From Thraustochytrium sp. TN22 (taxonomy: Eukaryota; Sar; Bigyra; Thraustochytrida; Thraustochytriidae), in the NCBI GenBank assembly GCA_013306675.1, contig JABLUY010000040.1:1-64000 (forward strand): a stretch of 64,000 nt of DNA, in the 5' to 3' direction. Of this stretch, positions 714-63,210 are shown in pieces (position 1 is the first letter of the stretch; every line of letters starts with the position of its first letter). The position numbers and the translations under genes are program-made. The notes under the pieces are model-generated. The model made no database searches, had not been told where the DNA came from, and saw only the letters and a program-made list of their open reading frames with translations.

Positions 714-2432
714 GGTCCGCTTCGCCGCCCTGCCCTCGCGCCGCGGCCGTGCCCCGTGCTCCGCGTGCTCCGCCGCCTCCGCCGCCTCCGCCGCGCCCTC
801 CCTCGCCGCGCCGATCCCGCGCAGGATCGGGTTCTGCCGCGGCGCCTCGTCGGCCGGCACGTGCACCTGCTACCAGCGCTAGCTGGGCTCTGCTTCCACC
901 TCCTTCCGCGGGCAGGACTCGGAGAACTGGGAGCATGACGTGCATACGTTCAACTCGAAGTCGGCAAGCGAGCGCTCGTCAACGATCGTCGATCAGAGCG
1001 ACCAGGCAACTCCAAGAACTTGAAGCGGCCGCTGGCAGCGCGGCGCGCGCCCCACTGCGCGCGGCGGCGGCCAGGAGCGCCGGCTGGCCGGGCTGCGCTG
1101 CGGCGCGGCCGGCGCGTCGCTCTCCAAGTCGTCGATCCTGGCTCGGCTCGACGAACTGGAACTCGACGCATCGCAACGCAAGGCCTGGCCATGGACCGGG
1201 TTGTCCTGGGCGGGCCGTGGCCCTGGGCCAGTGGGCCTGCGGCCCGCTCGGGCTGGCTGCCGAGATCGTGCATCTTGCCGCGGCGAGGAAGAAGCGGCGG
1301 CGCTCCGCCGACTCGGCACGCGGTCCGAGTCGTGGTCGGCGACTCGGCGGCCCTGACTGGGCCGCAGTGCAGGCAGTTTTGGCCCGGCGGCGGGGGAATT
1401 GCGGAGTCCAGCACGACCAGCTGCGAGTTGACGGCAAGTTGGCAGTGCTCAGGCTCAGGCTGTGTTCAAGTTGCGGCCCGGCGGGCCGCTGCGGCCGCAG
1501 CCGCAGCGCGTGCTCAAGTTGTCATCGGCTGCCTGTAGCCGGCCGGCGGCGGGCCGCGTCACGGCGTGAATGAGCTGGCACGCGGCGCCTGAGGCCCTGT
1601 GCTAGAGCCTCCTCAAGCTGGGGGGCGGAGCAGCCCGAAACAGCCTGGTGTCGGCCACGGACTTGGAAGGCAGGCGAGGGATCGCGCTGCCGATGCTCGA
1701 CCGAGTCGTGTGCTGCAGTCATAGGGCGGGCCTGAACCTTGGCCTGTCTGGCGGCGTCTGCGCGGGCTGGAGCAACCGACGCGGCGCTGGGCGGAACGCA
1801 TTTGATTTTCGCGGGCCGGCCGCGGCCCGCTGGCCCTGGTGGCCCGGACAAAGCCAGACGGCGGCCCGGGAATGCGCGATCTTTTGCGGGTTGGCTCGCA
1901 GCGGTACATTACCTGGAAGTACAGTCAAGTACTTCCCGGCCAGGCCCTTCCAGCCTTGGTATGCGTGCAAGGCTGACGTCGTGTGCAGCGGCTGCAGCCA
2001 CAGTGCGGCCCACGTGCGCAGATGCCGGGCGTGGGTGAAGGGACCCGGAGTCACGCAGCGTTGTGACTCGGAGAGTCTGTAAAAGTTAGGTACCAGGTAG
2101 GCCCACTTCAAGTTGAAACCTGACACGCAGCGGTCGGCGAGCTCTGATCTGATTCATCTGAAGCAAGCAACTATGTCCCTTGTGGTCTCAAGCACGACCA
2201 CTTCTTACACGGCGTCGGCGTACCAGGGCACCAGGTCTACCTGGTACGACTCCGTACGAGTGCCGTGGTACCGGGTACCATAGTACCACTGGGGTACCAC
2301 GCGGTACGACTAACTGTAGCACGCTCTGCTGTATGACGACGGCGAGTCCTCTGACAGGTCTTGGCGTCAAGCTGCTCGCGGCGCAGAACCGCTGACGCGC
2401 GGACGCGCGGGCGGCGGGCGTGCAGCGGCGCG
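714..2432. other. Long GC-rich region without a supported gene
   Basis: Several overlapping frames are open on both strands, but they are Ala/Arg/Pro-rich with no recognisable domain and look like GC-driven chance frames. At about 2222-2315 there is a dense cluster of GGTACC/GGTAC motifs (see findings). The region includes the 5' flank of the ankyrin-SAM gene. Confidence 0.45.
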
Positions 2433-2463
2433 ATGCTCGCGCTTCGCGGCGCGCTAGAGGCCG

Positions 2464-2496
<33 letters not shown>

Positions 2497-3308
2497 CTGG
2501 CGCCGGCGGCGCTGGAGATGGCGCTGGCGCGACGGTTGCGGAGGCCGTGACGTTGGGCGACGTGGACGCCGAGGTGGAGCACGTGCACGGGTGGACGGCG
2601 CTGCACGTGGCGGCGGCGGCGGGGCGAGCGGACGCGGTGCGCGTGCTGCTGGACCACGGCGCGAACCTGGAGGCCAAGGCGCGTCAGTTCGCGCAGACGC
2701 CGCTGCATGTGGCGGCCTGCGTGGGCTCGCAGGCCGTGGTGCGCCTGCTGCTGGAGCGCGGCGCCGTGCTGCACGCGCGCGACGAGCATGGATTCACGCC
2801 GCTGCACTACGCGGCCGCTGAGGGCTACCGCGCCGTGGTGGAGACGCTGCTGGCGTGCATGAAGGAGCGCGGCGCGGTGGAGCTGGTGAACGAGGCTGAC
2901 AGGGACGGGAGCTCCGCCCTGACGCTGGCGCAGCGAGCGCTCAACAGCAAGGTTGCCGAGACGCTGCAGGCCTTCCTCGCGGCGCACCTGGCGCACGACC
3001 TGGCTGACCCCGCCGAGATCGCTGAGCTCAACCGCTGGCTGGCGGACGTGGTGGGCTTGCCACAGTACATTCCGGGCTTCGTCGCGGCGGGCTACACGCG
3101 GCTGCGCTTCTGGGCCTCCACGGGGCTCTCCGCGGACGACTTTCGCGATATTGGCGTACTCCTCCCAGGCCACCAGCGCATCATCTCCCGCTTCCTCGCC
3201 GAATACGGCGACGCTAGCGGCTCCGACGGCGGCTCGGCGGGCTCCGGCTCTGGTTCCGGCTCGGACGACGGCGGCTCGGATGATGGCTCAGATGACTCGG
3301 ACGACTGA
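2433..3308 (+). CDS. Ankyrin-repeat and SAM-domain protein
   Basis: A 291-residue protein read from the ATG at 2433; the in-frame TTG at 2361 was not used because eukaryotes need ATG. After an Ala/Gly-rich N-terminus come about three ankyrin repeats (roughly residues 50-165), recognisable from GWTALHVAAAAGR, QTPLHVAA and GFTPLHYAAAEG. A SAM-like helical domain follows (about 190-255; LPQYIPGFVAAGYTRLRFW, then DDFRDIGVLLPGHQRII). The tail is Gly/Ser/Asp-rich and ends in repeated DDGSDDSDD. This architecture usually makes a cytoplasmic scaffold or adaptor, with SAM giving oligomerisation; the partner is unknown. Diverged copies of the acidic tail-coding sequence continue past the stop codon. 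Confidence 0.85.
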
Positions 3309-3492
3309 TATTCGCAGTCGATAACCGGGACGGACGGCGGCGGCTCGGATGACAGCTCAAAGGACTCGGACGACTTCCGTTCGCAGTCGAAACCACCCCA
3401 GCCAACGTTGCGCACCACGGCCTTGAGAGCGGATCGGCGGGCATCCGACGACCGCGGCTTGAGTGACGGCTCAGACGTCTCGAACGACTGAG
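3265..3492 (+). repeat. Diverged tandem copies of the ankyrin-SAM gene tail
   Basis: The final GGCTCGGATGATGGCTC/GACTCGGACGACT block and the following TTCGCAGTCGA motif recur about 70 bp later (GGCTCGGATGACAGCTC, GACTCGGACGACT, then TTCGCAGTCGA). A more diverged copy ends near 3490. The first copy holds the real stop codon; the others are 3' of it. This looks like local tandem duplication of the gene's 3' end. Confidence 0.65.
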
Positions 3493-4225
3493 CTCGCATG
3501 CCGCGCCCATGTACCTCAAACCACCGAACGCTGCCCACCACGAACCCGGGCTGCTGCATCATCACTGCACCCTGTAACCTAAAGATAGAAAAGTTCAAAC
3601 GGAGACACGAAGCGGCGCGGGATGCGCCGAGCGCTTCCTCCCTCCTTCGCGTCAATCCTCGGGCTTGGAAAACCGCGATGGGTTCCAGCACGAAGTGACG
3701 TGGTCTTCTTGCTCGAACCCATGCAACTTGCGCCTTTGCCGCACACCCTACGTTCGCGGCGCGCTAAACATTTGCGCCATGCGTAGCATCTGTAGCTAAA
3801 CTGCCTCGTCTCTTCGCCCCCGCCAGCGGGATCGTCTCCTCGGACGGCGGCCCACGGACGGGTTCCGGGACATGGCAGCGATGGTCCAGCGATGGCGGCC
3901 CATGGGCAGCCGCGGCGTGCGCAACGCGCCCGGAAAAGTCGGCCTCGGCGCGGCAGGCCCGAGCGCAGACCACCATCACGGCGCGGCGCGGACTCGCGCG
4001 GCGCGGACTCGCGCGGCGGCGCGGCGGCGGGCGGGCGGCGGCGCGGCGGCAGCCGCTTGCGTGCGCAGGCGCGGCGGCCGGTTCGTCGGCCGCGGGCCGC
4101 GGCGGCCGGGGCGGCGCGGGCAGGGGCCGGCTCGCTGGGCCGGGAGACGACGCGGGTCCGGGGCGCGCCTCGCCGGCGGAGCGCAGACCTGCGCTTGCGC
4201 GCGCGGACGGCGCGGCGCGGGCGAG
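3493..4225. other. Intergenic and 5' flank of the BSD gene
   Basis: No independent gene is supported. The open frame upstream of 4226 is Arg/Gly/Ala-rich and probably untranslated leader. The stretch 3980-4210 is extremely GC-rich with GCGCGG repeats, as expected of a promoter or leader here. Confidence 0.4.
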
Positions 4226-5593
4226 ATGTTCTCCGGGCTGCTGGACCAGTACAGGCAGGAGCTGAACGAGTTCGTGACGACCGTGCGCGATGACACGAGC
4301 CACGCGCTGAGCTCGGCGGCCGAGCGGCTGGCGAAGCTCAACGGGGAGGGCGGCGAGGACCGCGACGCGGGCGGCGGCGCGGCGGCGGCCTCGCTGCGGC
4401 TGGCCAAGGTGCAGGACCTGGAGACCTTTCTGGAGGTGGACCTGGAGAGCGGCGAGCAGCTGGCGCCCTTTGAGGACTTTTGCGACTCCTTCCAGCTGGA
4501 CTCGCGCGAGGACCAGATCGAGGCGGCCAGCGAGGCGGTCCGCGACCTGTACGAGTCCTACGTGCCGGAGCGCATGACGCACGAGGACTTTTGGCTGCGC
4601 TACTTTTACTTTCAGCACGTGCAGCGCCGCGCGCGCCTGCTCGCCGGCGACATCAACATGCAGGACGAGGAGGAGATGTCCTGGGGCGATGAGGATGAGG
4701 AGGACGAGGACGAGGCGGTCCGCGCGGAAGCCGCGCGCGCGTCCTCGGCCGACGCCCTGGACGGCGACGCGTCGCGCGATGCAGACAAGGACGAGGACGA
4801 GGACGAGGACGGCGCCGCCGAGGCTGAGGCTGCCGACGACGAGGAGAGCGCGCGGCCTCGCGCGCGCGTCGGCTGCGGCGCGCGCACGCGGGCAGCCGAG
4901 GCAGCCGACGCCGTGCGCGGCCTGGCCGAGGCCAAGACGCGCGCCGCGCTTGCGGAGCGCACCGTAGAGGACCTGCGCACCGAGGTGGAGAAGCTGCAGC
5001 TCCGGGTTGCGGAACTCGAGCGCGACAATGAGCGCCTGCGCCGCGAGCGCGACGCCGCCGCGCCATCGCGCGCCCCTACGCCAATGGGCGCTGTAAACAA
5101 GGAGGACGAGCCGGAGCTGGTGGAGCAGGTGTTGGAGCCGGGGGTCGTCGGGGAGCAGGCGCCGGAGCCGCCAGTGGCGGACGGCCAGTTGCCGGAGCCG
5201 GTGGAGGAGGCGCAGGTGGAGAGCAAGGACGCGGCCGTTGCCATGCGCACGGACTCTGGCCCTGATCTTGAGCGTCTCGAGTCGAGCAGCTGGGAGGTCG
5301 ACGACGTGCCTTCGGACGAGGCTTCCTCCGCGGACAAGCCAGATGCCGCCGCTGGCAACGACGGTGACGCCGCTGACAAGGAGGCTTCTGTCGGCACACC
5401 GGAGGCCGCCGCCAGCGACCAAGATGATGACGACGAAGACGAAGAAGACGACGACGACGTGGACGAGGAGGTCGCTGACCAAGACGAAGACGAGGACGCT
5501 GTCGTCAAGGCCGACGCGCAGAGCGCCGACGCGCAAGACCAGGGCGCTGACAAGGAGGACGATGATGAGGACGGCTGGGGCGCTTGGGAATGA
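4226..5593 (+). CDS. BSD-domain protein with acidic C-terminus
   Basis: A 455-residue protein from the ATG at 4226 (MFSGLLDQYRQELNEF). The N-terminal helix resembles the start of SYAP1/BSD-family proteins. A BSD domain lies at about residues 75-135, with the diagnostic FEDFCDSF and the paired aromatics LYESYVPERMTHEDFWLRYFYF. It is followed by long Asp/Glu runs, a coiled coil (about 240-290, ERTVEDLRTEVEKLQLRVAELE) and an acidic tail ending GWGAWE. BSD domains occur in TFIIH p62 and in synapse-associated proteins; this layout resembles the latter, often linked to membrane trafficking or Akt-type signalling. The role here is inferred only. The next gene, MLH3, starts 127 bp downstream on the same strand. 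Confidence 0.8.
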   Translation: MFSGLLDQYRQELNEFVTTVRDDTSHALSSAAERLAKLNGEGGEDRDAGGGAAAASLRLAKVQDLETFLEVDLESGEQLAPFEDFCDSFQLDSREDQIEAASEAVRDLYESYVPERMTHEDFWLRYFYFQHVQRRARLLAGDINMQDEEEMSWGDEDEEDEDEAVRAEAARASSADALDGDASRDADKDEDEDEDGAAEAEAADDEESARPRARVGCGARTRAAEAADAVRGLAEAKTRAALAERTVEDLRTEVEKLQLRVAELERDNERLRRERDAAAPSRAPTPMGAVNKEDEPELVEQVLEPGVVGEQAPEPPVADGQLPEPVEEAQVESKDAAVAMRTDSGPDLERLESSSWEVDDVPSDEASSADKPDAAAGNDGDAADKEASVGTPEAAASDQDDDDEDEEDDDDVDEEVADQDEDEDAVVKADAQSADAQDQGADKEDDDEDGWGAWE

Positions 5594-5720
5594 CCTTGAC
5601 GAAATGAGAATGCATGCAAAAGCAAGGTGCACTGATGTTGTCTTTTGTTGCGCGCCTGCGCTCGCTTGCTGTGTTTCAAGTTGCCGCGCTGCCTCTAGAG
5701 TCGCGCCCAGAACTGCAACC

Positions 5721-7760
5721 ATGGCCGGGCGGCGCGCGCGTCCTGCGGCCGGCGGTGCCGCGGACGACGCGCGCGTGCGGCGGCTGGCCCTGGGCGTGGG
5801 CGAGACGCTGCGCGCCGGGCGGAACCTGGCCGGGCTGGCGGCCATCGTGGAGGAGCTCGTGGCGAACGCGCTGGATGCGGACGCGAGTAGCGTGCAGGTG
5901 ACGGTGGAGCCGCGGCAGGGCTTCGTGCGCGTGCGCGACAACGGGTCCGGCATGTGCAAGGCGGAGCTGGAGCGCGCCGGCGCGGCCTTCTCCACGAGCA
6001 AGCTGTCCGAGGCCGCGGCCGAGGCGCTGGTGCGCGAGGGCGTCTTGGAGGCCGACAGCAGGGGCTTCCGCGGCGACGCCCTGCACGCCATCTCGCACCT
6101 CGGCACGGTGGAGCTCGTGTCGCGGCCCTGGGCGCTTGCGGGCAGCGAGCCGGCCGAGGAGGCGTGGACGAAAACGCTGCGCCAGGGCGTGGCGGACCGC
6201 GTGGCGCCCGTGCAGCGCCGCGTGGCGCCCGGGACGACCGTCACGGTGCGCGAGGTCTTCGCGCAGCTGCCGGTGCGCCGCACGTGGCTGCAAGCCAACG
6301 CGCGCGAGGCCATGACGCAGGTGCGGCGCCTGCTGGAGCGGACGGCGCTGGGCGCGCCGCGCTGCAGCTTCCGCCTCCTGCGCGGCGGGCCGGACGAGCC
6401 GGGCGCCGCGGCGCCGCTCTGGGAATGCGCAGGCGGAGCCTCGACGCGCGAGGTCTTCGGCCTGCTCTTCGGGCGCGACCTGGGCGATGCGCTCGAGGAC
6501 CGCGCCCTGTCGGCCGCTGGCTTGCAGCTGGAGGCGCTCGTCGCGCCGCCGCGGGCCGCCGCCATGCAGGCGTCGGCGCGCCTGCAGTTCGTCTTTGTCA
6601 ACGGGCGGCCCTTTGCGCGCGTGCGGCGCATCGAGGCGGCCATGAACCGCATGTACCGCTCGCATTTTGAGCGCGTGGGCGGCGGCACGGGGCTCTCGCC
6701 CTGCTTCCCGGCCTTTGTGCTCTCCATCCGCTGCTCGCCGGACGCCGTCGACCTCCTGCACGAGCCCGACCGGACCAACGTCGCCTTTGCGGACTGGCCG
6801 GGCCTGCTCGCCGCGCTCGAGGCCATGATGGCCGGCCTGTTGGCTGCCACGCCATTGCCGGCGGACCTGCTGGACGGCGGCGCCACGCAGGACAGCTTCG
6901 TGTCCCGCGCCAGCTCCTCGTCGACGCAGAGCCGGTACTTTGTGCCGGAGGACGCCGAGGTCGCGCCGGCCTCGCCGGGCCCGCCCGACCCGCCGGCGGC
7001 CTCCGTGCAGGACGCGCACCACGTGCACGACGCGTGGCGCGCCTTTCGGCCGAAGCGGCGGCGCCTGGACGCCGGCGCCGCCGCGCAGGCGGCACCGTGC
7101 GCGTGCGCGCAGGACCAAGACGCGGGCGCGGGCTACACCCAGGGCACGAGTCTGCCGCGCGAGGCGCTGCGCACCTGCAAGGTGATCGCGCAGGTGGGCT
7201 GCAAGTTCATCTTCGTGCAGCACGGCGCGCAGGTGCTCTGCATCGACCAGCACGCGGCGGACGAGCGCGTGCGGCTGGAGGCCTTTGAGGAGGATTTGCG
7301 CGCGCGCCTCGAGTCGGCCTATGTCGAGCGTTACTCGCTGGAGGCGGCGCCGGAGCGCGTGCGTCTGGAGCCGGACCACGTGGCCGCGCTGGAGCGGCTT
7401 CGGGAGGACCTCGACGCTTGGGGCTTTGCGTGGCGGGCGACGCCGCTCGATACGAGCTGCGTGGAGCTCATCAGCGTGCCGGCGGTCTTTGGCGTGCCGC
7501 TCGGTGGCGCGGCGCTCGTCGAGACGCTGGCGGTCGCGGCCGAGAGCCCTGCGCTCATGGACGTCCTCCTGCCGCCGCCAATCCGCGCGGCGGCCGTGGG
7601 CCGTGCGTGCCGCGGCGCCATCAAGTTCGGCGATGAGCTCTCGCATGAGGACTGCCAGGCGCTCGTCCGCAAGCTGGCGCGATGCCGCTTCCCCTTTCAG
7701 TGTGCCCACGGACGGCCCAGTTGCGTGCCGATTGTGGAGATTCAGCATGCCATCATGTAA
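5721..7760 (+). CDS. MLH3: DNA mismatch-repair MutL homologue MLH3
   Basis: A 679-residue MutL-family protein from the ATG at 5721. The GHKL ATPase motifs are all present: EELVANALDA (near residue 43), DNGSGM (about 73), STSKL and FRGDAL (about 118). The C-terminal endonuclease site is intact: DQHAADERVRLE (about 509-520), ACRGAIK (about 630) and FQCAHGRPS (about 659). The C-terminal pattern around GAIKFGDELS and FQCAHGRPS fits MLH3 better than PMS2. In known systems MLH3 pairs with MLH1 as a nicking endonuclease in meiotic crossover resolution and insertion-deletion mismatch repair. Here it is intronless and shorter than animal MLH3, with a short linker (about 385-475). The convergent BART gene ends 130 bp downstream. 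Confidence 0.9.
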   Translation: MAGRRARPAAGGAADDARVRRLALGVGETLRAGRNLAGLAAIVEELVANALDADASSVQVTVEPRQGFVRVRDNGSGMCKAELERAGAAFSTSKLSEAAAEALVREGVLEADSRGFRGDALHAISHLGTVELVSRPWALAGSEPAEEAWTKTLRQGVADRVAPVQRRVAPGTTVTVREVFAQLPVRRTWLQANAREAMTQVRRLLERTALGAPRCSFRLLRGGPDEPGAAAPLWECAGGASTREVFGLLFGRDLGDALEDRALSAAGLQLEALVAPPRAAAMQASARLQFVFVNGRPFARVRRIEAAMNRMYRSHFERVGGGTGLSPCFPAFVLSIRCSPDAVDLLHEPDRTNVAFADWPGLLAALEAMMAGLLAATPLPADLLDGGATQDSFVSRASSSSTQSRYFVPEDAEVAPASPGPPDPPAASVQDAHHVHDAWRAFRPKRRRLDAGAAAQAAPCACAQDQDAGAGYTQGTSLPREALRTCKVIAQVGCKFIFVQHGAQVLCIDQHAADERVRLEAFEEDLRARLESAYVERYSLEAAPERVRLEPDHVAALERLREDLDAWGFAWRATPLDTSCVELISVPAVFGVPLGGAALVETLAVAAESPALMDVLLPPPIRAAAVGRACRGAIKFGDELSHEDCQALVRKLARCRFPFQCAHGRPSCVPIVEIQHAIM

Positions 7761-38155: not shown

Positions 38156-39801
38156 ATGAAGGCGCGCAGCGCGGGCTCCGCGGGCGGCGCCCGCGTGTCG
38201 CCCTCGTTGAGCCTAGGAGGACTAGCTCGCGGCGACTCGCGTAATGGGCGGCTGCGCCGCAGCGGGCGGTCCTGGTCCGAGGGCAAGCGGAGGCGCCACG
38301 CACACTATCGATTCTCAAGAAAGCGGCTGCTGCGGGTCCAGCTGCTGCTCTTCTTGGCGCTGGGCGCCTACGCGATGCTCGCGAACCACTTCGCATTCTC
38401 GTTGCCGCCGCTGGGCGTGGATTTCCAGCTCTTGAGCTTCGCCGGCGCAGATGCGGGCAGCCCGGGCATTGGCGGCGGCGGCGGCGGCGGCGGTGATGGT
38501 CTCATCGCACGGCTCCTGTCCGAGGACCCGATGGACGACACGGTGACCGAGGCGCCCTCGTGCCCAGCAGACCAGGCGATGGACCCAAACGCGACGAGCG
38601 CGGGCCAGTTCCCAGACGACTTCTTCGACGAGGAGCAGAAGAAGCGCGGCGGCATCATCGTGCACATCTTCCTCATATTCTACATGTTCATGGGGCTGGC
38701 GATCGTGTGCGACGAATACTTTGAGTCGTCGCTAGAGGCGCTCTGCGAGGACCTGCACCTCAAGGAAGACGTTGCGGGCGCGACGTTCATGGCCGCGGGG
38801 GGGTCCGCACCGGAGCTCTTCTCCAGTATCATCGGTGTCTTTGTGGCGCAAAGCGACATCGGCTTTGGCACCATTGTCGGCTCGGCCACCTTCAACGTCC
38901 TCTTTGTCATTGCGGCCTGCGCCTTCGTCACGGACAACCTCACGCTGAGCTGGTGGCCGCTGACGCGCGACTGCGTCTTCTACTGTGTCTCCATCGTGGT
39001 GCTGGTCTCGTGCATCATCGACCAGGAGGTGGCGGCGCCAGACGCCATCCTCCTGCTCATCATGTACGCGCTATACATCACCGTCATGTACTTTAACGAG
39101 GCGCTAGAACGCTGGGTCGGCCGCCAGATGGAGAACGCGCAGACGCCGCGCAAGGGCTGGCGTGCCGCGCTCGAGTGGGCGCTCAACCACAACTACTTCA
39201 ACTACTTCATCTACGCGGTGATCGTCGGCAACATCACCGTCATCGTGTACGAGGTGACCAAGGGCGAGACGCCCATCACCTCGGGGTTCAACGCAGCCTT
39301 CTCCGCGATCTTCATCGCGGAGATGCTTCTGAAAATGGCGGCGCTCTCCTTCTTCGGCTACTGGCACAGTCCGCTCAACGCCTTCGACGGCACGCTGGTC
39401 ATCCTCATCCTGCTCGAGCTCGTGCTGTCCTCGTCCAGCTTCTCTGGCGGCCTGCGCGCGCTGCGCGCGGTCCGATTTCTGCGCATTGCGCGCGTCTTCC
39501 GCCTCTACATGGCCTCATTCGTGGAGAAGGTCGAGGCGGAGACGCAGACCACCAAGGAGGACTGGATCATGCTCGAGACCGCCGAGACGATGACTCTCGA
39601 GGAGGCCGCGCGCCACGCGCTGCCCATCCAGACGCGCACCGCCGCGGCTGTGGCGCCCGCGCGCCTCTCGCTTCGCAGCTCCTCGCTGCAGGACGACCCG
39701 AAGCTTGAGGCGCTCATCCGCGAGGCCGAGGAGGCGCGCAAGGCCGCCGAGGCTAGGGGTGAGCATCAGCGCGGTCTCGACAGCAATAGCGACGGCGACA
39801 G

Positions 39802-39832
<31 letters not shown>

Positions 39833-40432
39833 AGCAACCCATTTGCCATCCCGGACGGCGGCATCATCGATCTCATCCTCTGGGCCGTCGCCTTCCCTCT
39901 CAGCCTCGGCATGTTCCTCACCATTCCGGACTGCCGCCGCCCCATCTTTAAGCGCTTCTACATGGTCACCTTCCTCATGTGCATCGTCTGGATTGCGATG
40001 CTCGCCTACGTCATGGTGTGGATGGCCACCATCTTTGGCGAATTCGCCGGCATCTCTGAGCCCATCATGGGCCTCACGCTGCTCGCCGCCGGCACCAGCA
40101 TCCCGGACCTGCTCTCCAGCGTCGCCGTCGCCAAGCGCGGCTTCGGCGACATGGCCGTCTCCAGCTCAATCGGCTCCAACATCTTTGACATCCTCATCGG
40201 CCTGCCGGTGCCCTGGTTCATCTTCACCGCCATCGTCAATCCGGGCTGCACCGTAACTATTCACTCCGAGGGACTCACAATTATGGTCCTCACGCTCTTC
40301 ATCATGGTCGCCGCCGTGGTTTCCATTATCCACTGGTGCAACTGGATCATGTCCAAGAAGCTCGGTCTCGCCATGCTCTTCCTGTACTTTGGCTTTGTCA
40401 TTGAGAGCCTCCTCCTGGAGGGCTCCTCATGA
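38156..40432 (+). CDS. K+-dependent Na+/Ca2+ exchanger with an internal voltage-sensor domain
   Basis: A 758-residue membrane protein from the ATG at 38156. A basic N-terminus and one hydrophobic segment (about 62-85) precede the first exchanger half. Alpha-1 repeat is at about 205-255 (GATFMAAGGSAPELFSS, then GTIVGSATFNVLFVI). Alpha-2 repeat is at about 635-690 (LLAAGTSIPDLLSSVAVAKR, then MAVSSSIGSNIFDILIGLPV). Both match SLC24/NCKX. Between them, at about 340-450, lies a complete four-helix voltage sensor: S1 about 346-366; S2 about 378-400 with IFIAEMLLK; S3 about 405-427 with NAFDGTLVI; S4 with Arg434, 437, 440, 443, 446 and 449 at every third position. No S5-pore-S6 follows; instead there is an acidic cytosolic linker. 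Expected function: Ca2+ extrusion in exchange for Na+ with K+ cotransport, possibly gated by membrane potential. Confidence 0.9.
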
Positions 40433-41492
40433 GCAGCACGGAGAAGACGGTCAAAAGGCGACCTTGGACGATCACGACGCGAAGCGAAGCTTGACCAGCT
40501 TCCCTCGCCACCTGCAGAAGCCCAAACAAAGCCTCGCTGCCGGGTGACGTTTACCCGGGTGCACGGGCCCTGGTGTTACCAGGCAGGGTAACAGGGCGCC
40601 CGCCCGAAACACCAACAACAAGAACCCATCCTAAACACCTTCTTTTGTTCCATTTCGCTCCCGGTTTCTCTCTTTCCAGAGCAGCAAACTTGCGTCCGTG
40701 GCGCTCAAGCCAGCTAGCGCCAGGCGCCAAGCGTATCCAAAGAGGACTGGTCGCGATGGCCTTCTCGCAGGGCAGGCCCAAAGGCGGCTGCAAGCCTCTA
40801 CGACGTGGCGTCCGGCGCTTGTTCCCTCATCTCCATCTTGACAAAAATCTCTCACGCACAGTAACAGCCATCTTGAATGATCTCTCACGCAGGCCTCGCT
40901 CGTCGCAGCTTCACGACATCACGCACCTCGCAGGCCTCGCAGTGCCAGCTAACGGGCAGGTCGGCCCGGTTCTCCGAGGCCGCCTCGTCGAAGCGGTGAT
41001 GTCCCAGCAAGATCCCCCCCATCCAGGCTAGCTAGCTAGGCCTGGAGCACCGAGGCAAGCTCGCTCGCATCCTAAGGCACGAGGGTCTCCTCGTCGTGGC
41101 GTGGAGTGGGTCCTGGACTGCGGAAAGGGATTGCCTTCAAGTTGGGATCATCTCCAAGGGAAAAGGAAAGCGAGCTAACTGGCGGCGATAGGCCGCGGCG
41201 AGGCGGCCTCGTCCAACGACGGGGCCGCGGCGGCGGCGCGCGGCGCCAGAGCCGTGTCGGCTGCGCAGCGCGGCGCGGCGGCGCGGCGCGGCGCGGCGGC
41301 GGCGGCGGCGGCGGCGGGCGCGGCGGGCGGCCCTGCCAGCGGCGGGTGCGTCGCGGGCGGCGCGGCGCGGGCGGCGGCGGCGGTTTCCCTGGCGCATCCG
41401 CGGCGGGTAAGGGCACAGCGCCGCGAGGCGGAGCGCGACGGCGCGGAGGCGCGGCGAGAAAGGCGAGGGGGAGGCGAGGCGAGGCAGGCACG
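40433..41492. other. Intergenic, NCKX 3' flank to importin leader
   Basis: No gene supported. Short inverted repeats at about 40541-40590 (CGGGTGACGTTTACCCG; CTGGTGTTACCAG) could form hairpins near the NCKX 3' end. GCTAGCTAGCTAGG occurs near 41030. The final 280 bp before 41493 are GCGGCG-rich leader. Confidence 0.45.
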
Positions 41493-44400
41493 ATGGCCAG
41501 CGCGGAGGAGGTGCAGCAGGCGATCCAGGTCGCGTACCAGAGCGTTGGCACGGAGAATGCGAGGCGAGAGGCCATCGGATGGCTGCAGAGCTTCGCGGCG
41601 ACGAGCGAGGCGTGGGCCACATGGCTCGAGCTGGCGGCGTCGCCGTCGCAGCACACGCAGTTCTACGCGGCCAACATGCTCTTCACCAAGGTGCAGAAGG
41701 AGTGGCTGGACCAGTCGGAGGCGGTCAAGGGCGACATCCTCCAACGCGTCCTGCAGGCGGTGCGCGACTATGTGCGCGACGACTCCCAGCGGCTGTGGAC
41801 CAAGAGCCTGCGGCGGCTGTGCCTGGCGCTTGCGCGCATGACGGTGCAGACGCCCTCGCTTCTCGAGGTGTATCTGGGCGAGGTCTGGGCGCTGCTCCAG
41901 GCCGGCGTGGAGCAGGCGGCGCAGCTCGCACCCAGCGCGTCGCTCGGCGTTTCGCAGGCCGGACGCGCCCTTTTCGTAGCAACCGAGCTTCTCATTGTGC
42001 TGCCCGAGGAGAAGGAGGCCGAGGAGCAGCACGAGCGCTCCGTCATGCCGGAGGCGGACCCTGCCGGCATTCATATGCGGATGCGAGGTGTGCTGGCGCA
42101 GGTCGTGGATGCCGTCACGCAGCTCATGATGAAGTTCGAGCAGTCCGCCGTGCACGCGCGTGCGCTTGAGTGCCTGCACGCCTGGGCGCCCCTTGGCGTT
42201 GACGTGCTAACGCTGGCGCGCTGCAGCCTGCTCTTGCCCCTGCTGCGCGCGCTCGTCTCGTGTCAGGAGCTCCCGGTGCTGGAGATGGCCTCGCAGGCGC
42301 TCGTGGCCTGCGTGCGGGCCACCGGGCTGGCGGCCGCTGCGGCGGGCACCTCCGCCGCCGGCGCCGACTCACCCGAGGCGGCGGCCGCCAACGACGAGCT
42401 CGTCGATGGCGTGCTCGCCACGCGCGCGCGCGTGGCCGATGCGGCCGCCGCGAGCGGCGGCCCGCTCGAGCGCGACGACAGCACACGCGCCGAGGTGGCG
42501 CTCTGCCTCTGTCGTGTGGCCGTGGCAGTGGCCGAGGCGCAGATCGACCGCGTCGTGGCCGGCGCCTCGCCCTCGCTGCTGGCGCTCGGTGACTTCGTGC
42601 TCTCGCTCACCGCGCACCCTGACTTGACCGTGGCAATACACACGCTCAACTTCTGGCATCTGGTGCAGGACTTTGAGCTCGCGCAGCGCCATGAGTCTCT
42701 GCGCGAGCCGGGCTTCCTCAAGCTGCTCGAGGTGCTGCTGCGCCAGTCGCGCCTCAACCCAGGCGCAAGCTCGGGCTACGAAGAGGACGTGCAGGACGAG
42801 ATCCAGAGCTTCCGCAACAGCGGCGACGGCGTCAAGGAGCTCTTCTACGTCATCACCTACGTGCTGGGTCCGCGCTACGTGGAGTGCATGCTGGCCGTCA
42901 TGCGCTCCACGCAGGACTGGCGCGAGTTCGAGGCCGCCATGTTCGCACTCTGCGCGGCCGCGCGCGTCATTGCCGAGCAGGCCGCCAAGCCCGACCCGCG
43001 CAGCGCTGCGCTGCGCGCGCACGTCGAAACCGTTCTGCAGGAGCTCTCCTCATGGAGCCTGCTGGGCGCCAACGGCGCCACACTGCGCTCCGGCGTGCAG
43101 ATGATCGGCCACTTCGCCAGCTTCTTGGCGCGCATGGACCGCGCCGTCATCGAGCGCAACCTCAACTACGTCATCTTTGCGCTGCCCTTCTCCGACCCGG
43201 TCAGCCGGACGGCCGCCGACGCCTTTTGCCGCGTCTGTATCGCCAGCCGCCTCGAGCTTGCCATGCAGACGGACGGTGTCAAGTCGCTCGCGCAGGGCAT
43301 CGAAACCGCCGTGCAGCGCTTCCCCACGGACCCGGCCAGCCGCGGCGAGGAGGGCACCTTCGCGGCCGCCAAGTCCGTCACCTTCCCGATCGAGGCGCGC
43401 TTGCGCGCCGTCGAGGGCATCACGCGCGTGGCGGCCTGCATGAAGCTGCCGGCGTGCCGCGAGACCCTTGCGGTGCTCCTCAACCCGGGCCTGGAGCGCT
43501 TGGCCAAGGCCGTGGACGCCGGCGCGGACGGGTCCATCGCCGCGCAGGAGCTCCAAGTGCTCTGCTGTGCCGTCAAGTACGTCGATGTCAACCTCAAGAA
43601 CCTCGAGACGCCGCTCGACCACCCGGTTGCCGCCATCCTTAGCGAGATCCTCCCGCTGCTCGAGAAGATCACTGCGGCACCTGCGCTGCAGCGCGACACC
43701 GAGGTGGTCGACGCGCTCTATTCGCTCATCTCCGCCTCCTTCTTCTCCGCCAAGGCTGTGCTGGGCCAGCACCTCGAGACGCTGCTCACCGCCGCCGTGG
43801 CGCAGTTTCGTATCACCTGGACTCCGACCTGCGTCGACTGCCTGGGCAAGGCTGTGGAAGTCTTCGCGCCCTCGCAGCCCGGCGCCGAGGCCGGCTTTCA
43901 GACGCTCTTCGCGCGCCTTACCGACAGCATGATCGTCTGCATTCAGGAGGGCCACGTCGCCAATGACCCGCGCATCGTGTCCACCTTCTTCGATGCCGCA
44001 CTCACCGTGCTCATCTTCTGCCCCGGCGCGCTCTTCTCCCCGGACCCGCGACCGGGCACGGCCGCGCCGGCGGGCGCCACGGGCGCCAACGGCGGCGATT
44101 CTGCCGCCAGCGTCGCCATCGCGCCAGAGACAACCCTCGACGCCTTCATCCAGATTCTCTGCCGTTGCGTAGCGAGCGACGAGGTCGAGTCGCTGCGCTC
44201 CGTCGCCGTCTTCCTCACCTCGCTTATGAGCCGCCTCGGCGGCGACGCCTCGGCCGCCGCCGCCGCCGTCGGCAAAATCGACGCCGCCGCCAAGGCGCGT
44301 GCCATCTCGCAGTATCGTCCCGTCTTTGACCAGGTGCTCGCGCGCAACGGCACGCTGCTCGTCGGCGCAATCATGCGTGCCCTTGCCGCCACGTGCCCGC

Positions 44401-44702
44401 CGGCGCCGCTGCCCAAGCTCGCCCAGGGCATGGCCGACCTCACCGTGGGCTACCCACAGCTCGTGCAGCAGGCCGTCTACGAGACGTTTGTCCAGGACCC
44501 CGCTTCCTTCTCGCGCCTCTCCGACGCCGACAAGGAGGCGCTCGTCACTACCGTGCCCCACATGTCTCAGGGCGTTGGCACAAAGGCTAAGGAGGCCTTT
44601 CAGGAGTTCGCTCGCCTCTGCCGCAAGCAGACCTCCTCCGAAAAGTACCAGCAGCTCCTCGCTGCGATGCGCGCTCCCCCCGAGGTCATCGAAATTGCCT
44701 AA
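41493..44702 (+). CDS. Importin-beta family karyopherin (importin-13/transportin-3 type)
   Basis: A 1069-residue HEAT-repeat protein from the ATG at 41493; the leader frame upstream is Gly/Arg-rich. The N-terminal importin-beta domain is clear: NARREAIGWLQSFAATSEAW, then YAANMLFTKVQKEW and the XPO1/importin-beta-like segment LRRLCLALARMTVQTPSLLE. Helical repeats continue to the C-terminus (LLLPLLRALVSCQELPVLEM; FFDAALTVLIFCPGALF; QYRPVFDQVLARNGTLLVGA). The combination resembles TNPO3/IPO13, which import SR splicing factors or RCC1-type and other cargos under RanGTP control; both are about 920-960 residues, so this one is longer, with Ala/Gly-rich inserts near 285-320 and 850-870. The exact orthologue is not certain. 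Confidence 0.82.
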   Translation: MASAEEVQQAIQVAYQSVGTENARREAIGWLQSFAATSEAWATWLELAASPSQHTQFYAANMLFTKVQKEWLDQSEAVKGDILQRVLQAVRDYVRDDSQRLWTKSLRRLCLALARMTVQTPSLLEVYLGEVWALLQAGVEQAAQLAPSASLGVSQAGRALFVATELLIVLPEEKEAEEQHERSVMPEADPAGIHMRMRGVLAQVVDAVTQLMMKFEQSAVHARALECLHAWAPLGVDVLTLARCSLLLPLLRALVSCQELPVLEMASQALVACVRATGLAAAAAGTSAAGADSPEAAAANDELVDGVLATRARVADAAAASGGPLERDDSTRAEVALCLCRVAVAVAEAQIDRVVAGASPSLLALGDFVLSLTAHPDLTVAIHTLNFWHLVQDFELAQRHESLREPGFLKLLEVLLRQSRLNPGASSGYEEDVQDEIQSFRNSGDGVKELFYVITYVLGPRYVECMLAVMRSTQDWREFEAAMFALCAAARVIAEQAAKPDPRSAALRAHVETVLQELSSWSLLGANGATLRSGVQMIGHFASFLARMDRAVIERNLNYVIFALPFSDPVSRTAADAFCRVCIASRLELAMQTDGVKSLAQGIETAVQRFPTDPASRGEEGTFAAAKSVTFPIEARLRAVEGITRVAACMKLPACRETLAVLLNPGLERLAKAVDAGADGSIAAQELQVLCCAVKYVDVNLKNLETPLDHPVAAILSEILPLLEKITAAPALQRDTEVVDALYSLISASFFSAKAVLGQHLETLLTAAVAQFRITWTPTCVDCLGKAVEVFAPSQPGAEAGFQTLFARLTDSMIVCIQEGHVANDPRIVSTFFDAALTVLIFCPGALFSPDPRPGTAAPAGATGANGGDSAASVAIAPETTLDAFIQILCRCVASDEVESLRSVAVFLTSLMSRLGGDASAAAAAVGKIDAAAKARAISQYRPVFDQVLARNGTLLVGAIMRALAATCPPAPLPKLAQGMADLTVGYPQLVQQAVYETFVQDPASFSRLSDADKEALVTTVPHMSQGVGTKAKEAFQEFARLCRKQTSSEKYQQLLAAMRAPPEVIEIA

Positions 44703-49492: not shown

Positions 49493-51061
49493 ATGAGGCG
49501 ATCAACGGCCCGGCGCGCGCGCGGGCAGCCAGGGCGGCAGCCGCGGGCGGCCGTGGTCCTGCTCACCGGCCTCGTCGTGGTCCTGGCGCTGGCAGGCTGG
49601 GCCTGGAGCTCGGCCCTGAGACGGCTGCACAGCAAGGACAAGCTCGAGTTGGCAAGAGTTGCAGTCCGAGTCGAAGTGGCGGCAGGCGACGACGCAGGCC
49701 GTCTTGTAGGCCGTCGCAATGCAGCGACGCCCGTCTTGCGGGCTGCTGGAGGGCGACCGCCAGCTGAAGACCTTCAAGTTCTTGTGGTGGGCTATTGCCC
49801 CGGCGACAATCTGGAGCGATTCGCACGCGAAGTGGGCGCGGTTGTGGCGGCGCGGCGCGGGCAGCAGCTGGTGGCCAAGGCCGTGCGTCAGGTGGGCGAC
49901 GAGGACAAGGTTGACGTGGTCATGTGCGAGCGAGGGTCCACCGCCATGGTGGCGCGCAAGCGGGAGCGGCTAGGGCTCGCGCCCCGCACGGCGACGCCGC
50001 CGTTCGCAGAAGGTTGGCACGGCCTGATCCGGTGGCCAAAGTCGGCACGCGTGCTGGCTGCGGCGGACGGCTCCACGGGCCACAAGCCGCTCATTGTGCG
50101 CTACAACATGGAGCCGTGGCCCACGCGCGTCGCGACGGGCGTGGACGTGGCGATCGACTGCAAGCGCGCCATGGTGCCGCACGAGCAGGTGGTGCTGCAC
50201 GTGCCGTACGCCTACATGAGCTTTACCCATAGGCCCTCGGAGCTGCACCCCGAGCTGCTGGTTGCGTCAGACGCCTCGGCAGGCGTGCGGGTCGGCCCTC
50301 TCAAGTTCACGACGGCGGGCCGCGAGACGGAGGCGCTGGCGGCGGCGGCGGCGAGCGCACAGCAGCGGGGATTTATGGGTTTCCTCGCCAGCTACTGCAG
50401 CTCGCGCGTCGCGAGCAGCATCTTGCGCGTGATGTTCTTCAATGCAGTCTTTGAGCACTTCGCGCCTCTGGGCCGCGTGCCGACGGCGCTGGGCAACTGC
50501 CAACCACGCACGGTTCGCGACGAGACGCCGGCTCTGCGCCTGGTCGCGGCGGCCAACCTCGTGAGCCCGGACATGTTCGCGGACGCGGTGAGCGCGTTTT
50601 CTCGGTTCAAGTTCGGGCTCGCGTTTGAGAACAGCGGCGTTGCCGGATACGTGACGGAGAAAGTGGTCAACGTGAAGCTGGCGGGCGCCGTTCCCGTGGT
50701 ATGGGGCCCGCCGGACCTTGACGAAATGCTCAACCTGCAGGCCGTGGTGTGGTGCAACGTGAGTACACGGGACGTCCCTTGGGAACAGCTCCTGCAGGAG
50801 GCGGGCGATGTCGGGGCGAGCCCAGCGATCGACCATGTGGAGCGAGCGGCGTGGCCTCTGCTCGGCGGGGCTCGACGCGCCTTTGGCGACTGCATGGACC
50901 AAATCGCCTACCTGGACACGCACGCTGAGGCGTACGAGAAGGTGCGTCGTGCGCCACTGCTGCGGCGGCTTCAAGGCTCCATCGCGGACACGGCGGCGTA
51001 CGCCGCCGCGCTGGACGAGGCGCTGGCCGCGGCGGAGGATGGGCGTTGGCGCGTGGAGTAG
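49493..51061 (+). CDS. GT10-family alpha-1,3-fucosyltransferase-like protein
   Basis: A 522-residue type II membrane protein from the ATG at 49493. A short basic cytosolic tail is followed by a signal anchor (about 20-41, AVVLLTGLVVVLALAGWAW). The catalytic C-terminal half contains the GT10 signature at about 370-404: FKFGLAFENSGVAGYVTEKV, then LAGAVPVVWG. Upstream, FMGFLASYCSSRVAS and the VRYNMEPWP segment fit the acceptor-side domain. The expected reaction is transfer of fucose from GDP-fucose to GlcNAc or a similar acceptor in the Golgi lumen; acceptor specificity cannot be read from sequence. The start lies fewer than 90 bp from the putative SPRYD7 first exon on the opposite strand. Confidence 0.85.
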   Translation: MRRSTARRARGQPGRQPRAAVVLLTGLVVVLALAGWAWSSALRRLHSKDKLELARVAVRVEVAAGDDAGRLVGRRNAATPVLRAAGGRPPAEDLQVLVVGYCPGDNLERFAREVGAVVAARRGQQLVAKAVRQVGDEDKVDVVMCERGSTAMVARKRERLGLAPRTATPPFAEGWHGLIRWPKSARVLAAADGSTGHKPLIVRYNMEPWPTRVATGVDVAIDCKRAMVPHEQVVLHVPYAYMSFTHRPSELHPELLVASDASAGVRVGPLKFTTAGRETEALAAAAASAQQRGFMGFLASYCSSRVASSILRVMFFNAVFEHFAPLGRVPTALGNCQPRTVRDETPALRLVAAANLVSPDMFADAVSAFSRFKFGLAFENSGVAGYVTEKVVNVKLAGAVPVVWGPPDLDEMLNLQAVVWCNVSTRDVPWEQLLQEAGDVGASPAIDHVERAAWPLLGGARRAFGDCMDQIAYLDTHAEAYEKVRRAPLLRRLQGSIADTAAYAAALDEALAAAEDGRWRVE

Positions 51062-60758: not shown

Positions 60759-61572
60759 CTTGCTTTGTGGTGTGGCGTGCGCTTTCTTGCTCTGCTCGCT
60801 TGTGCTTTCTTGCTCTTGGCGTTTCGTGTTTGGTGCTGCCCAGGACCAAAGCTAGTAGCTCCTCGACAGCTTTTCCGAAGAGCCTGCTCAGGAGCCTGCG
60901 CGAGTGCTGCGCAAGCTAGCTAGCCACCCAATCGCTCCAGGCTCCTGAGCCAGGGCCAGAAGATGAAGCCAGTAGGACTTCGACCGCTTTTTCGGTGGGC
61001 ACTCGAAAGATATGTTCAGCGCGGATTCGCCCGCCGGGGCGCCTCGTCGCGCCTCTGCGTGAGAAAGTCAAACGAGCCTTGACTTGGGCTTTGAGTAACG
61101 CCATCCATCCAGTCTTCCAGCGTGCAGGCTCGCATGCAGGCGAGCGACCAGGCCCTTTGAAAGCCGGGGAATCTCGCGGGCTAGTATGGGATTCCTGACT
61201 ATAAGCTGCCCTCTTGACGCAAGACAAGAGAATACCGAGACGAGACGGCGAAAGGCTCACTGCGACTCACTGGCACTGGCAGACTGGCACTGTCTGGCCT
61301 GTCTGAGTGCCAGTGCCAGGTCGTGCCAGGTCGTGCCAGTCGCCCAGTGTGCGCGCCAGTTCCAAGTTCCAAGTTCCAGGTTCGAGTTTGTACACACCCC
61401 ATCAGAAAAACGAATCTTCGAATCTCGTCCGAGTCCGAGTCCGAGTCGCTCCGAGTCGCATCGCGAGACACACACGTCAAGTTATCCGACCTTGCTTCAA
61501 GCTCAGGTACGCGCCTTGTGCGTGGCGCGCAGCCGAGCAAGCGGCCTGCCGGGCCGGGCCGGCTCGGCGGGC

Positions 61573-63210
61573 ATGGCGGCTGCGGCGTCTCGGCGCGCCC
61601 TCTTTGCACGCGTGGAGCGCGAAGAGGCGGCGCTGCAGGCGCTGGTGGCGCGACGCGCGTCCGTGGCTGCGAATGTCTCCAACCAGCACCCGGCCGACTT
61701 GACGGGCGCCGACATGACGGTGACCGCGAGAGCGAGAGCGAGACCAGCACCCGCCCCTCGGCGGCTATCCACGTACGTGCGCGAGAGCTACCTAGCGCAG
61801 GGCGTGGAGCAGGGCGCTCCTACGATGCGCGTGGACGACGCTGTGTGGAAGCTCATCGCAGCAGGAGAGAACGAGGTTGCTCGAATCGTTGCGCTGGGCG
61901 ACGTGCGGCCCGCGAGTGTCGATACAGACGCGGGTGACGCAGAAGACAGGCCCGAAAAAGGCATCCTTGCCTTGGCCAGCGTCCAGGAGCGTGAGGACCC
62001 GGACTGGGCCAAGGCTGCCTGGCAGGCGAGCGTGCGGCGTCAGCACATTCGCGAGTGCCAGCTAGGCATGGCGCTGCGCAACGCCAGGTTCGACGCGCAG
62101 GAAGCCATGCCAGCCTGGGTGCACAAGTTGAGCGATGCAGTTTTTCTGCTGGATCACTTTGGGCTCAGGGCCTCGACATGGTGGCGGCCTCGCTTCCTTG
62201 CAGAGCTTGACGACGTCGCTGCGCAGCTTCGTGACGATGTCGATGGTGGCGACAACGACAACGACAACGACTCAGGCTCAGGCTCACGTGGCGTGAGTCG
62301 TGGGGCACGCACGCCTGCGGTGGCGCGGCTCTTGCGCGAGATGGACTCGTGCAAGGCTGACATCAACGTCTGCTCAGCGCGACAGCTCATTGAACGCGTG
62401 CACAAGCTTCTCCTCCTGGCCGAGGAGGTGGACAACACGTGGGGAGCGCGCATGCGCGCGCACCGACGCTTGCAGGAGGAATGGCTGGCATCCCGGCGCA
62501 CGCAACGCGCTGACTTGCACAGCCTCGCAACGAAGCGCGCGGGGCTGCGTCGGGACAGGCGCACAAAGGCCAAGAGCGACCGCTGGGGCTTCTACAAGGC
62601 TACGGCGGCGCCCCTATTGCCACAGCCAGCGCGCGGATCGCCCGAGGCACGCAAGTTGGCGGCTGCCACCACCATTCTCGCCGCCCTGGATAAGCTCGAG
62701 CTCCTGCCCGTGAATCAGCTCACGGTTAGCCAAGTGCACACCGAGTACCTCTTGCTACTTGCGGCTTGCGCCCACCAAGGGCTCTGGCACATCTCCGCGG
62801 CAATTTACCAGTCAATGCGCGGCCGCCTGCGGCGTAAGATCAACCTCGACACATACCGTCTGCTCGTGACTGCCTGCAAGCACGCCAACCCTTCGGACTC
62901 TCTTCAGGCTCTGCACGTACTCGCGGAGCTACGACGGCGCGGCTTCACGCCATCCGTGGCCATAATGAACGCCGTTATTGACGCTTGCGTTGCAGGCGCC
63001 GAGTGGCGCCGCGCCGCGCGGTTGCTCCTGCTCATGGGCCAGCTCGGCATCGACGCCACCCCGGTCACATACGATACGCTCTACCGCGTTTGTGCGGGCG
63101 CGCGCGCCGAGCACGCCCCACTCATCTACGAAACGCTCAAGTTGGCTGGCGCTCCCGAGACGATCGCCTTCGCCTGCGCAAGGGCCAACCGTTACTTGTT
63201 ACATGACTAA
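61573..63210 (+). CDS. Pentatricopeptide-repeat protein
   Basis: A 545-residue protein from the ATG at 61573. The N-terminal two thirds are helical and charged with no recognised domain, including a basic segment (SLATKRAGLRRDRRTKAKSD) and an Asp/Asn run (about 222-235). The C-terminal part (about 380-545) has PPR-type helix pairs: LLLLAACAHQGLWHISAAIY, TYRLLVTACKHANPSDSLQA (then LHVLAELRRRGFTPSVAI), MNAVIDACVAGAEWRRAARL (then LLLMGQLGIDATPVTYDTLY). PPR proteins bind organellar RNA; the Arg-rich N-terminus (MAAAASRRALFARVE) could be an organellar presequence. Target RNA unknown. The stop is 67 bp from the convergent Fanzor-like stop. Confidence 0.78.
   Translation: MAAAASRRALFARVEREEAALQALVARRASVAANVSNQHPADLTGADMTVTARARARPAPAPRRLSTYVRESYLAQGVEQGAPTMRVDDAVWKLIAAGENEVARIVALGDVRPASVDTDAGDAEDRPEKGILALASVQEREDPDWAKAAWQASVRRQHIRECQLGMALRNARFDAQEAMPAWVHKLSDAVFLLDHFGLRASTWWRPRFLAELDDVAAQLRDDVDGGDNDNDNDSGSGSRGVSRGARTPAVARLLREMDSCKADINVCSARQLIERVHKLLLLAEEVDNTWGARMRAHRRLQEEWLASRRTQRADLHSLATKRAGLRRDRRTKAKSDRWGFYKATAAPLLPQPARGSPEARKLAAATTILAALDKLELLPVNQLTVSQVHTEYLLLLAACAHQGLWHISAAIYQSMRGRLRRKINLDTYRLLVTACKHANPSDSLQALHVLAELRRRGFTPSVAIMNAVIDACVAGAEWRRAARLLLLMGQLGIDATPVTYDTLYRVCAGARAEHAPLIYETLKLAGAPETIAFACARANRYLLHD

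Follow-up and report, generated by a model that had tools for sequence, protein, structure and literature searches.

An exchanger gene with an inserted voltage sensor

We analysed a 64,000-nucleotide stretch of contig JABLUY010000040.1 from Thraustochytrium sp. TN22 (the window), in which one open reading frame (ORF) encodes a 758-residue protein, VSD-NCKX, that joins a voltage-sensor domain (VSD) to a K+-dependent Na+/Ca2+ exchanger (NCKX). Pfam searches of this protein returned Na_Ca_ex in two stretches (E 1.2e-51) and, between them, Ion_trans at residues 345-451 (E 7.7e-18). Only these two families pass their cut-offs; p53-inducible11, the sole further family listed, falls below its own, and no cyclic-nucleotide-binding domain (CNBD) was found by Pfam. 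The Ion_trans match covers profile positions 1-109 of 241, indicating an S1–S4 segment without pore helices. No S5–S6 helices were found after S4; a single hydrophobic helix (570-589), with similar ones in sensor-less paralogs, precedes the second exchanger half. Among solved structures, the sensor is closest in sequence to T-type Cav channels and the exchanger to NCLX and NCX. An original prediction, made from the DNA letters, had placed a pore-less S1–S4 sensor between two NCKX alpha-repeats and had named a domain search as a check. That search bears out both points, and profiles, relatives and structure model together confirm VSD-NCKX as an NCKX with an inserted S1–S4 sensor and no pore. 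The features of the gene are given below, with domain coordinates on the genome taken from a six-frame search.

38156..40432, + strand: VSD-NCKX gene, uninterrupted ORF with ATG start, 758 residues (ORF analysis, Pfam)
38297..38401, + strand: N-terminal hydrophobic helix, residues 48-82, followed by a low-confidence segment, 82-124 (AlphaFold2 helix, hydropathy)
38666..39091, + strand: first Na_Ca_ex half, alpha-1, residues 171-312, containing GGSAPE220 (genome profile search, family alignment)
39095..39187, + strand: helical connector from TM5 to S1, about residues 314-344 (AlphaFold2, family alignment)
39188..39508, + strand: voltage-sensor domain S1–S4, Ion_trans profile 1-109 of 241 (Pfam, genome search, sensor profile)
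39191..39262, + strand: S1, residues 346-369, with conserved N359 (conservation, AlphaFold2)
39272..39346, + strand: S2, residues 373-397, with F386-x-x-E389 and K393 (conservation, AlphaFold2)
39371..39433, + strand: S3, residues 406-426, with D411 (conservation, AlphaFold2)
39452..39520, + strand: S4, residues 433-455, six Arg at i+3 spacing, 434-449 (S4 charge count, conservation, AlphaFold2)
39521..39862, + strand: post-S4 linker of variable length, residues 456-569, with an acidic run and TQT at 463-465 (profile, conservation, AlphaFold2)
39863..39922, + strand: hydrophobic helix 570-589 preceding the second half; similar stretches in the sensor-less own-genome paralogs C17, C410 and C441 (hydropathy, AlphaFold2)
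39959..40402, + strand: second Na_Ca_ex half, alpha-2, residues 602-749, containing GTSIPD651 and GSNIFD678 (Pfam, genome search, family alignment)

Elsewhere in the window, plus-strand ORFs at 41106-44702 (weak transportin-3/importin-13-type match), 49493-51061 (glycosyltransferase family 10 match) and 61186-63210 (weak PPR matches) have no evident link to the exchanger.

A large family shares the architecture

Both Pfam domains are precomputed for 92 of the best 120 matches to the whole VSD-NCKX protein. Of 175 sequences, 108 have a sensor by a separate profile, built from 20 sensors that are also counted among its positives; these are the query and 107 of 169 listed relatives. The same profile found no sensor in the five NCKX-like paralogs of the organism's own genome (0/5). 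The presence of the sensor in so many relatives, set beside its absence from the paralogs, argues that VSD-NCKX is not an ORF accident. The two alpha-repeat motifs flank the sensor in all but one of the sensor-bearing members (107/108), the exception being P0084, for which the second motif was not located. The search of other genomes for the same domain order that had been proposed with the original prediction thus yields a large conserved family rather than a one-off.

Among the matches listed, the closest named relatives come from two species that we take to be thraustochytrids: Hondaea fermentalgiana, at 75% identity over 81%, and Mucochytrium quahogii, at 56% over 95%. P0083 derives from a transcriptome assigned to Cercozoa (taxid 136419). 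The sensor profile found no sensor in matches under animal species names among those listed, and P0103 has none by profile or Pfam. Querying with only the sensor region of P0078, a central member, gave 48 proteins; 46 of them have both domains and two (P0186 and P0187) have Ion_trans alone. All 19 proteins new to this query match the sensor profile; most are short, and the first motif is missing in 17 and the second in 4. Within the viral_contigs collection, two peptide patterns gave 21 matches, none of them a relative by tblastn. Public records already annotate both domains, under plain exchanger names.

These data also bear on whether two adjoining genes or a misread intron could have produced the fusion through an error of assembly or gene model. 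Support for a single transcript comes only from relatives: six sensor-bearing members (P0004, P0012, P0025, P0054, P0083 and P0094) have what we read as transcriptome-assembly-style names. As 107 of 169 listed proteins share the architecture and a single open frame spans the gene in the window, a point that the original prediction had also raised against a gene-model error, we regard such an artefact as having a negligible chance of being correct.

Sensor and exchanger residues are conserved

The sensor retains the S2 Glu, S3 Asp and i+3 basic run of S4 that mark a VSD. Across the 108 members, 17 sensor columns are at least 90% identical, including N359, N379, E389, K393, D411, E421, R434, R437 and R446, and E389 and D411 are invariant (108/108). 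The only sensor columns that are at least 85% Arg or Lys are K393 and S4 positions 434, 437, 440, 443, 446 and 449. Runs of at least five consecutive i+3 basic residues occur in 105 of 108 members, most commonly seven or eight and at most 11; the window protein has six, and three exceptional members have 3, 3 and 1. The S2 motif FIAEMLLK (E389, K393), the S3 Asp in NAFDG (D411) and the six S4 arginines at three-residue spacing (R434, R437, R440, R443, R446 and R449) all stand as originally described. At 39485-39520, the window protein, the Hondaea protein and P0002 have six basic residues compared with seven in P0003-P0005, an in-register difference of one triplet.

The exchanger residues are preserved in parallel. 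E220, D651, S674, N675 and D678 occur in 108 of 108 members, S648 in 107 and G216 in 97, and all seven are identical in crocodile NCKX2 (P0120). By motif and spacing, E220, D651, S674, N675, D678, S648 and G216 would correspond to human NCKX2 E188, D548, S571, N572, D575, S545 and G184. We take D575 to carry K+ dependence, and by these motifs VSD-NCKX fits the K+-dependent class to which it had first been assigned. In human NCKX2, Cys at G184, E188, S545, D548 or S571 abolishes measurable transport, and D575 belongs to a cation site (PMC12150658).

Overall, conservation is lower in the sensor than in the transporter: 53 of 158 and 46 of 180 columns reach 90% identity in the two exchanger halves. 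In the post-S4 linker none does (0/109). Both observations would suit a structural, targeting or partner-docking module without useful voltage sensing, as would a TQx motif, potentially a docking site, which 56 of 108 members carry within 60 residues past the end of the sensor (39 of 108 carry TQT). In the window protein TQT lies just past S4, at residues 463-465 (39542-39550), and we considered it as a putative LC8-like docking site. However, the basic columns of the sensor are precisely the six S4 positions and K393, the acidic E389 and D411 are invariant, and a pure anchor would not require S4 runs of seven or eight charges. We therefore judge a module of this kind unlikely.

The sensor could instead be a separate, Hv1-like voltage-gated proton or cation pathway attached to the exchanger rather than its gate. 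Isolated VSDs are able to conduct (PMC10651576). The genome also encodes S1–S4-only proteins: two of 322 residues, L045 (C393) and L046 (C196), have S1–S4-type Ion_trans as their sole match, and L045 looks like a proton channel in our reading of its sequence. The S1 Asp of L045 is presumably the proton-selectivity residue. VSD-NCKX members lack it at the aligned position, N359, which is Asn in 107 of 108. S4 arginines, moreover, normally exclude ions from the gating pore (PMC13095418), and a conducting role is in our view improbable.

Predicted structure of the sensor

AlphaFold2 predicts the exchanger superfamily fold and a four-helix VSD, with sensor helices at 346-369, 373-397, 406-426 and 433-442 plus 445-455. 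Averaged over ten residues, pLDDT is 89-96 for residues 341-420, 77 for 421-430 and 60-76 for 431-460; in the post-S4 linker (456-569) these averages are mostly 37-77. The structure prediction that had been suggested as a check thus supports four sensor helices, with lower confidence around S4.

The sensor occupies a regulatory loop

Profile searches of the genome (37.9 Mb, 453 contigs) gave 25 Na_Ca_ex and 90 Ion_trans matches, and the window locus is the only one of the 90 at which Ion_trans lies between exchanger halves. Other modules occupy this position elsewhere. An NCKX-like paralog (L020; G000 C17:57000-62500, ORF 1545-4454, minus strand) has EF-hand pairs between its halves by Pfam and is a possible Ca2+-sensing counterpart of the voltage-sensing exchanger. 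An NCX-like exchanger (L024; G000 C258:18000-23500, ORF 879-3806, plus strand) has Calx-beta there, as in animal NCX; in C55 Pfam found no module between the halves. Separately, a 1,476-residue protein (L047; G000 C31:14000-22000, ORF 3155-7585, plus strand) combines an S1–S4-like Ion_trans segment with a cyclic-nucleotide phosphodiesterase domain; its voltage sensing is doubtful because the S4-like helix has few basic residues.

Beyond what was originally described, the insertion point is the TM5–TM6 loop. In NCX this cytosolic loop is regulatory and runs at its end into TM6, a helix that slides together with TM1 in the course of transport (PMC9820601), so that the sensor sits at a known control point of the exchanger superfamily. 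The two flanks of the sensor differ in the family: the TM5–S1 connector, from N314 to F348, spans 30-42 residues (5-95%: 32-39), whereas R449 to P581 spans 56-276. The long linker would leave space for partners, and voltage might move the sensor to signal to another protein while the exchanger supplied only location or Ca2+ context. Insertion into the loop that regulates NCX (PMC9820601) and the near-constant connector speak against such an output, which we hold to be very unlikely.

Taken together, VSD-NCKX is probably a voltage-gated K+-dependent Na+/Ca2+ exchanger with a Cav/Nav-type S1–S4 sensor in its TM5–TM6 loop. Because the S2 and S3 acidic residues and the S4 charges are conserved, the likeliest reading of the sequence is that membrane potential directly controls Ca2+ extrusion. 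With four membrane helices, both sensor ends may face the cytosol, and exchanger topology could stay unchanged; S4 would move with membrane potential and alter the exchange rate through the cytosolic side. The most likely coupling route would run through packing of the sensor body against the core near TM5 and through the cytosolic connector, given that the connector is near-constant and the S4–TM6 linker long and variable. The position of this connector after TM5 is, we assume, that of the autoinhibitory XIP segment in NCX1. A direct pull of S4 on TM6, the first mechanism considered, is weakened by the variable 56-276-residue linker.

NCKX proteins are thought to move 4 Na+ against 1 Ca2+ and 1 K+ (PMC9820825), a stoichiometry by which depolarisation weakens or can reverse exchange. 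A gate closing on depolarisation would stop reverse Ca2+ entry; one opening on depolarisation would speed clearance following Ca2+ influx. The sequence does not give the sign of gating, and we lean towards closing by analogy with hyperpolarisation-activated SLC9C1. On this favoured analogy, the sensor would allow Ca2+ extrusion by an electrogenic exchanger when the potential is suitable and would limit reverse entry on depolarisation.

Origin and significance of the family

Among own-genome channels, the best match to the sensor is domain two of a four-domain channel on C87. In a weak sensor tree (of 48 inner branches, 26 are open and 1 is starred), 35 of the 108 family sensors fall on one side of a branch, with the 16 best own-genome channel sensors on the other (SH-aLRT 89). 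We favour one sensor origin. A strict single clade of sensor-bearing exchanger cores, with the sensor-less P0127 outside, was rejected (p-AU 0.0011), and a clade including P0127 was borderline (p-AU 0.046) in a test chosen after the tree had been seen. Both tests used a quick tree of 52 hand-picked sequences out of 175, with own_C183, own_C410, P0099 and P0106 among those omitted. That tree needs three changes of sensor label, and its starred branches force three; the 175-sequence tree, labelled with 109 sensor-bearing sequences (one too many, as P0103 was included), needs six and forces one. One acquisition followed by later losses is the simplest reading, though not a settled one.

A bolder and still tentative proposal is that these proteins form an ancient class of Ca2+ exchangers gated by voltage and widespread in marine protists. 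Their sensor would stem from one acquisition from a four-domain-channel-like source; it may predate the split between the NCKX1/2-like and NCKX3/4-like branches and may have been lost in animals. The lack of a clean clade among exchanger cores weighs slightly against this proposal. If the proposal holds, Ca2+ extrusion itself would be electrically gated, and electrically active protists could reset Ca2+ by voltage.

Keyword literature searches, with subscription papers and bioRxiv mostly outside them and a prior mention possible, turned up no voltage sensor in any NCKX or NCX among the matches listed. No word beginning with "voltage" occurs in a review of NCKX regulation (PMC9820825). In passages from two voltage-sensor reviews, SLC9C1 (sNHE) is the only transporter named with an S4 sensor (PMC13095418, PMC10651576). 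A second, unrelated transporter superfamily with a sensor between its inverted repeats would show sensors to be portable transporter modules. VSD-NCKX would allow a test of S4 control over alternating access and would connect Ca2+ clearance in marine protists directly with membrane potential. The five sensor-less own-genome NCKX-like paralogs and one or two apparent losses among relatives offer natural controls.

Comparison with known systems

VSD-NCKX shares with NCKX/SLC24 proteins the two Na_Ca_ex halves, the motif residues including Asp678 (which we equate with NCKX2 D575) and an acidic run in the TM5–TM6 loop, but has a full sensor in that loop, which none of the animal-named matches listed has. 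Like SLC9C1, it combines a secondary transporter with an S1–S4 sensor bearing an S2 aromatic residue and Glu, an S3 Asp and an S4 basic run (PMC13095418). The transporter, its substrate and its superfamily differ. SLC9C1 carries its sensor after the transporter domain and also has a CNBD (PMC13095418, PMC10651576), whereas in VSD-NCKX the sensor lies between the halves; the SLC9C1-type combination of Na+/H+ exchanger domain, VSD and CNBD was not found in it by Pfam. Four-domain Cav/Nav channels are the best sequence relatives of the sensor, through T-type Cav structures and the second domain of the C87 channel, but carry the S5–S6 pore that VSD-NCKX lacks.

Other sensors act on enzymes. In Ci-VSP and other voltage-sensing phosphatases the effector is a phosphatase rather than a transporter. 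Related protists, stramenopiles and alveolates, likewise place a sensor-like Ion_trans segment on a non-channel effector, there a nucleotide cyclase instead of an exchanger (PMC12223298). NCX1/SLC8, with CBD1-CBD2, and the EF-hand paralog on C17 resemble VSD-NCKX in placing a regulatory domain in the TM5–TM6 loop: their domains bind Ca2+, whereas that of VSD-NCKX is a membrane voltage sensor.
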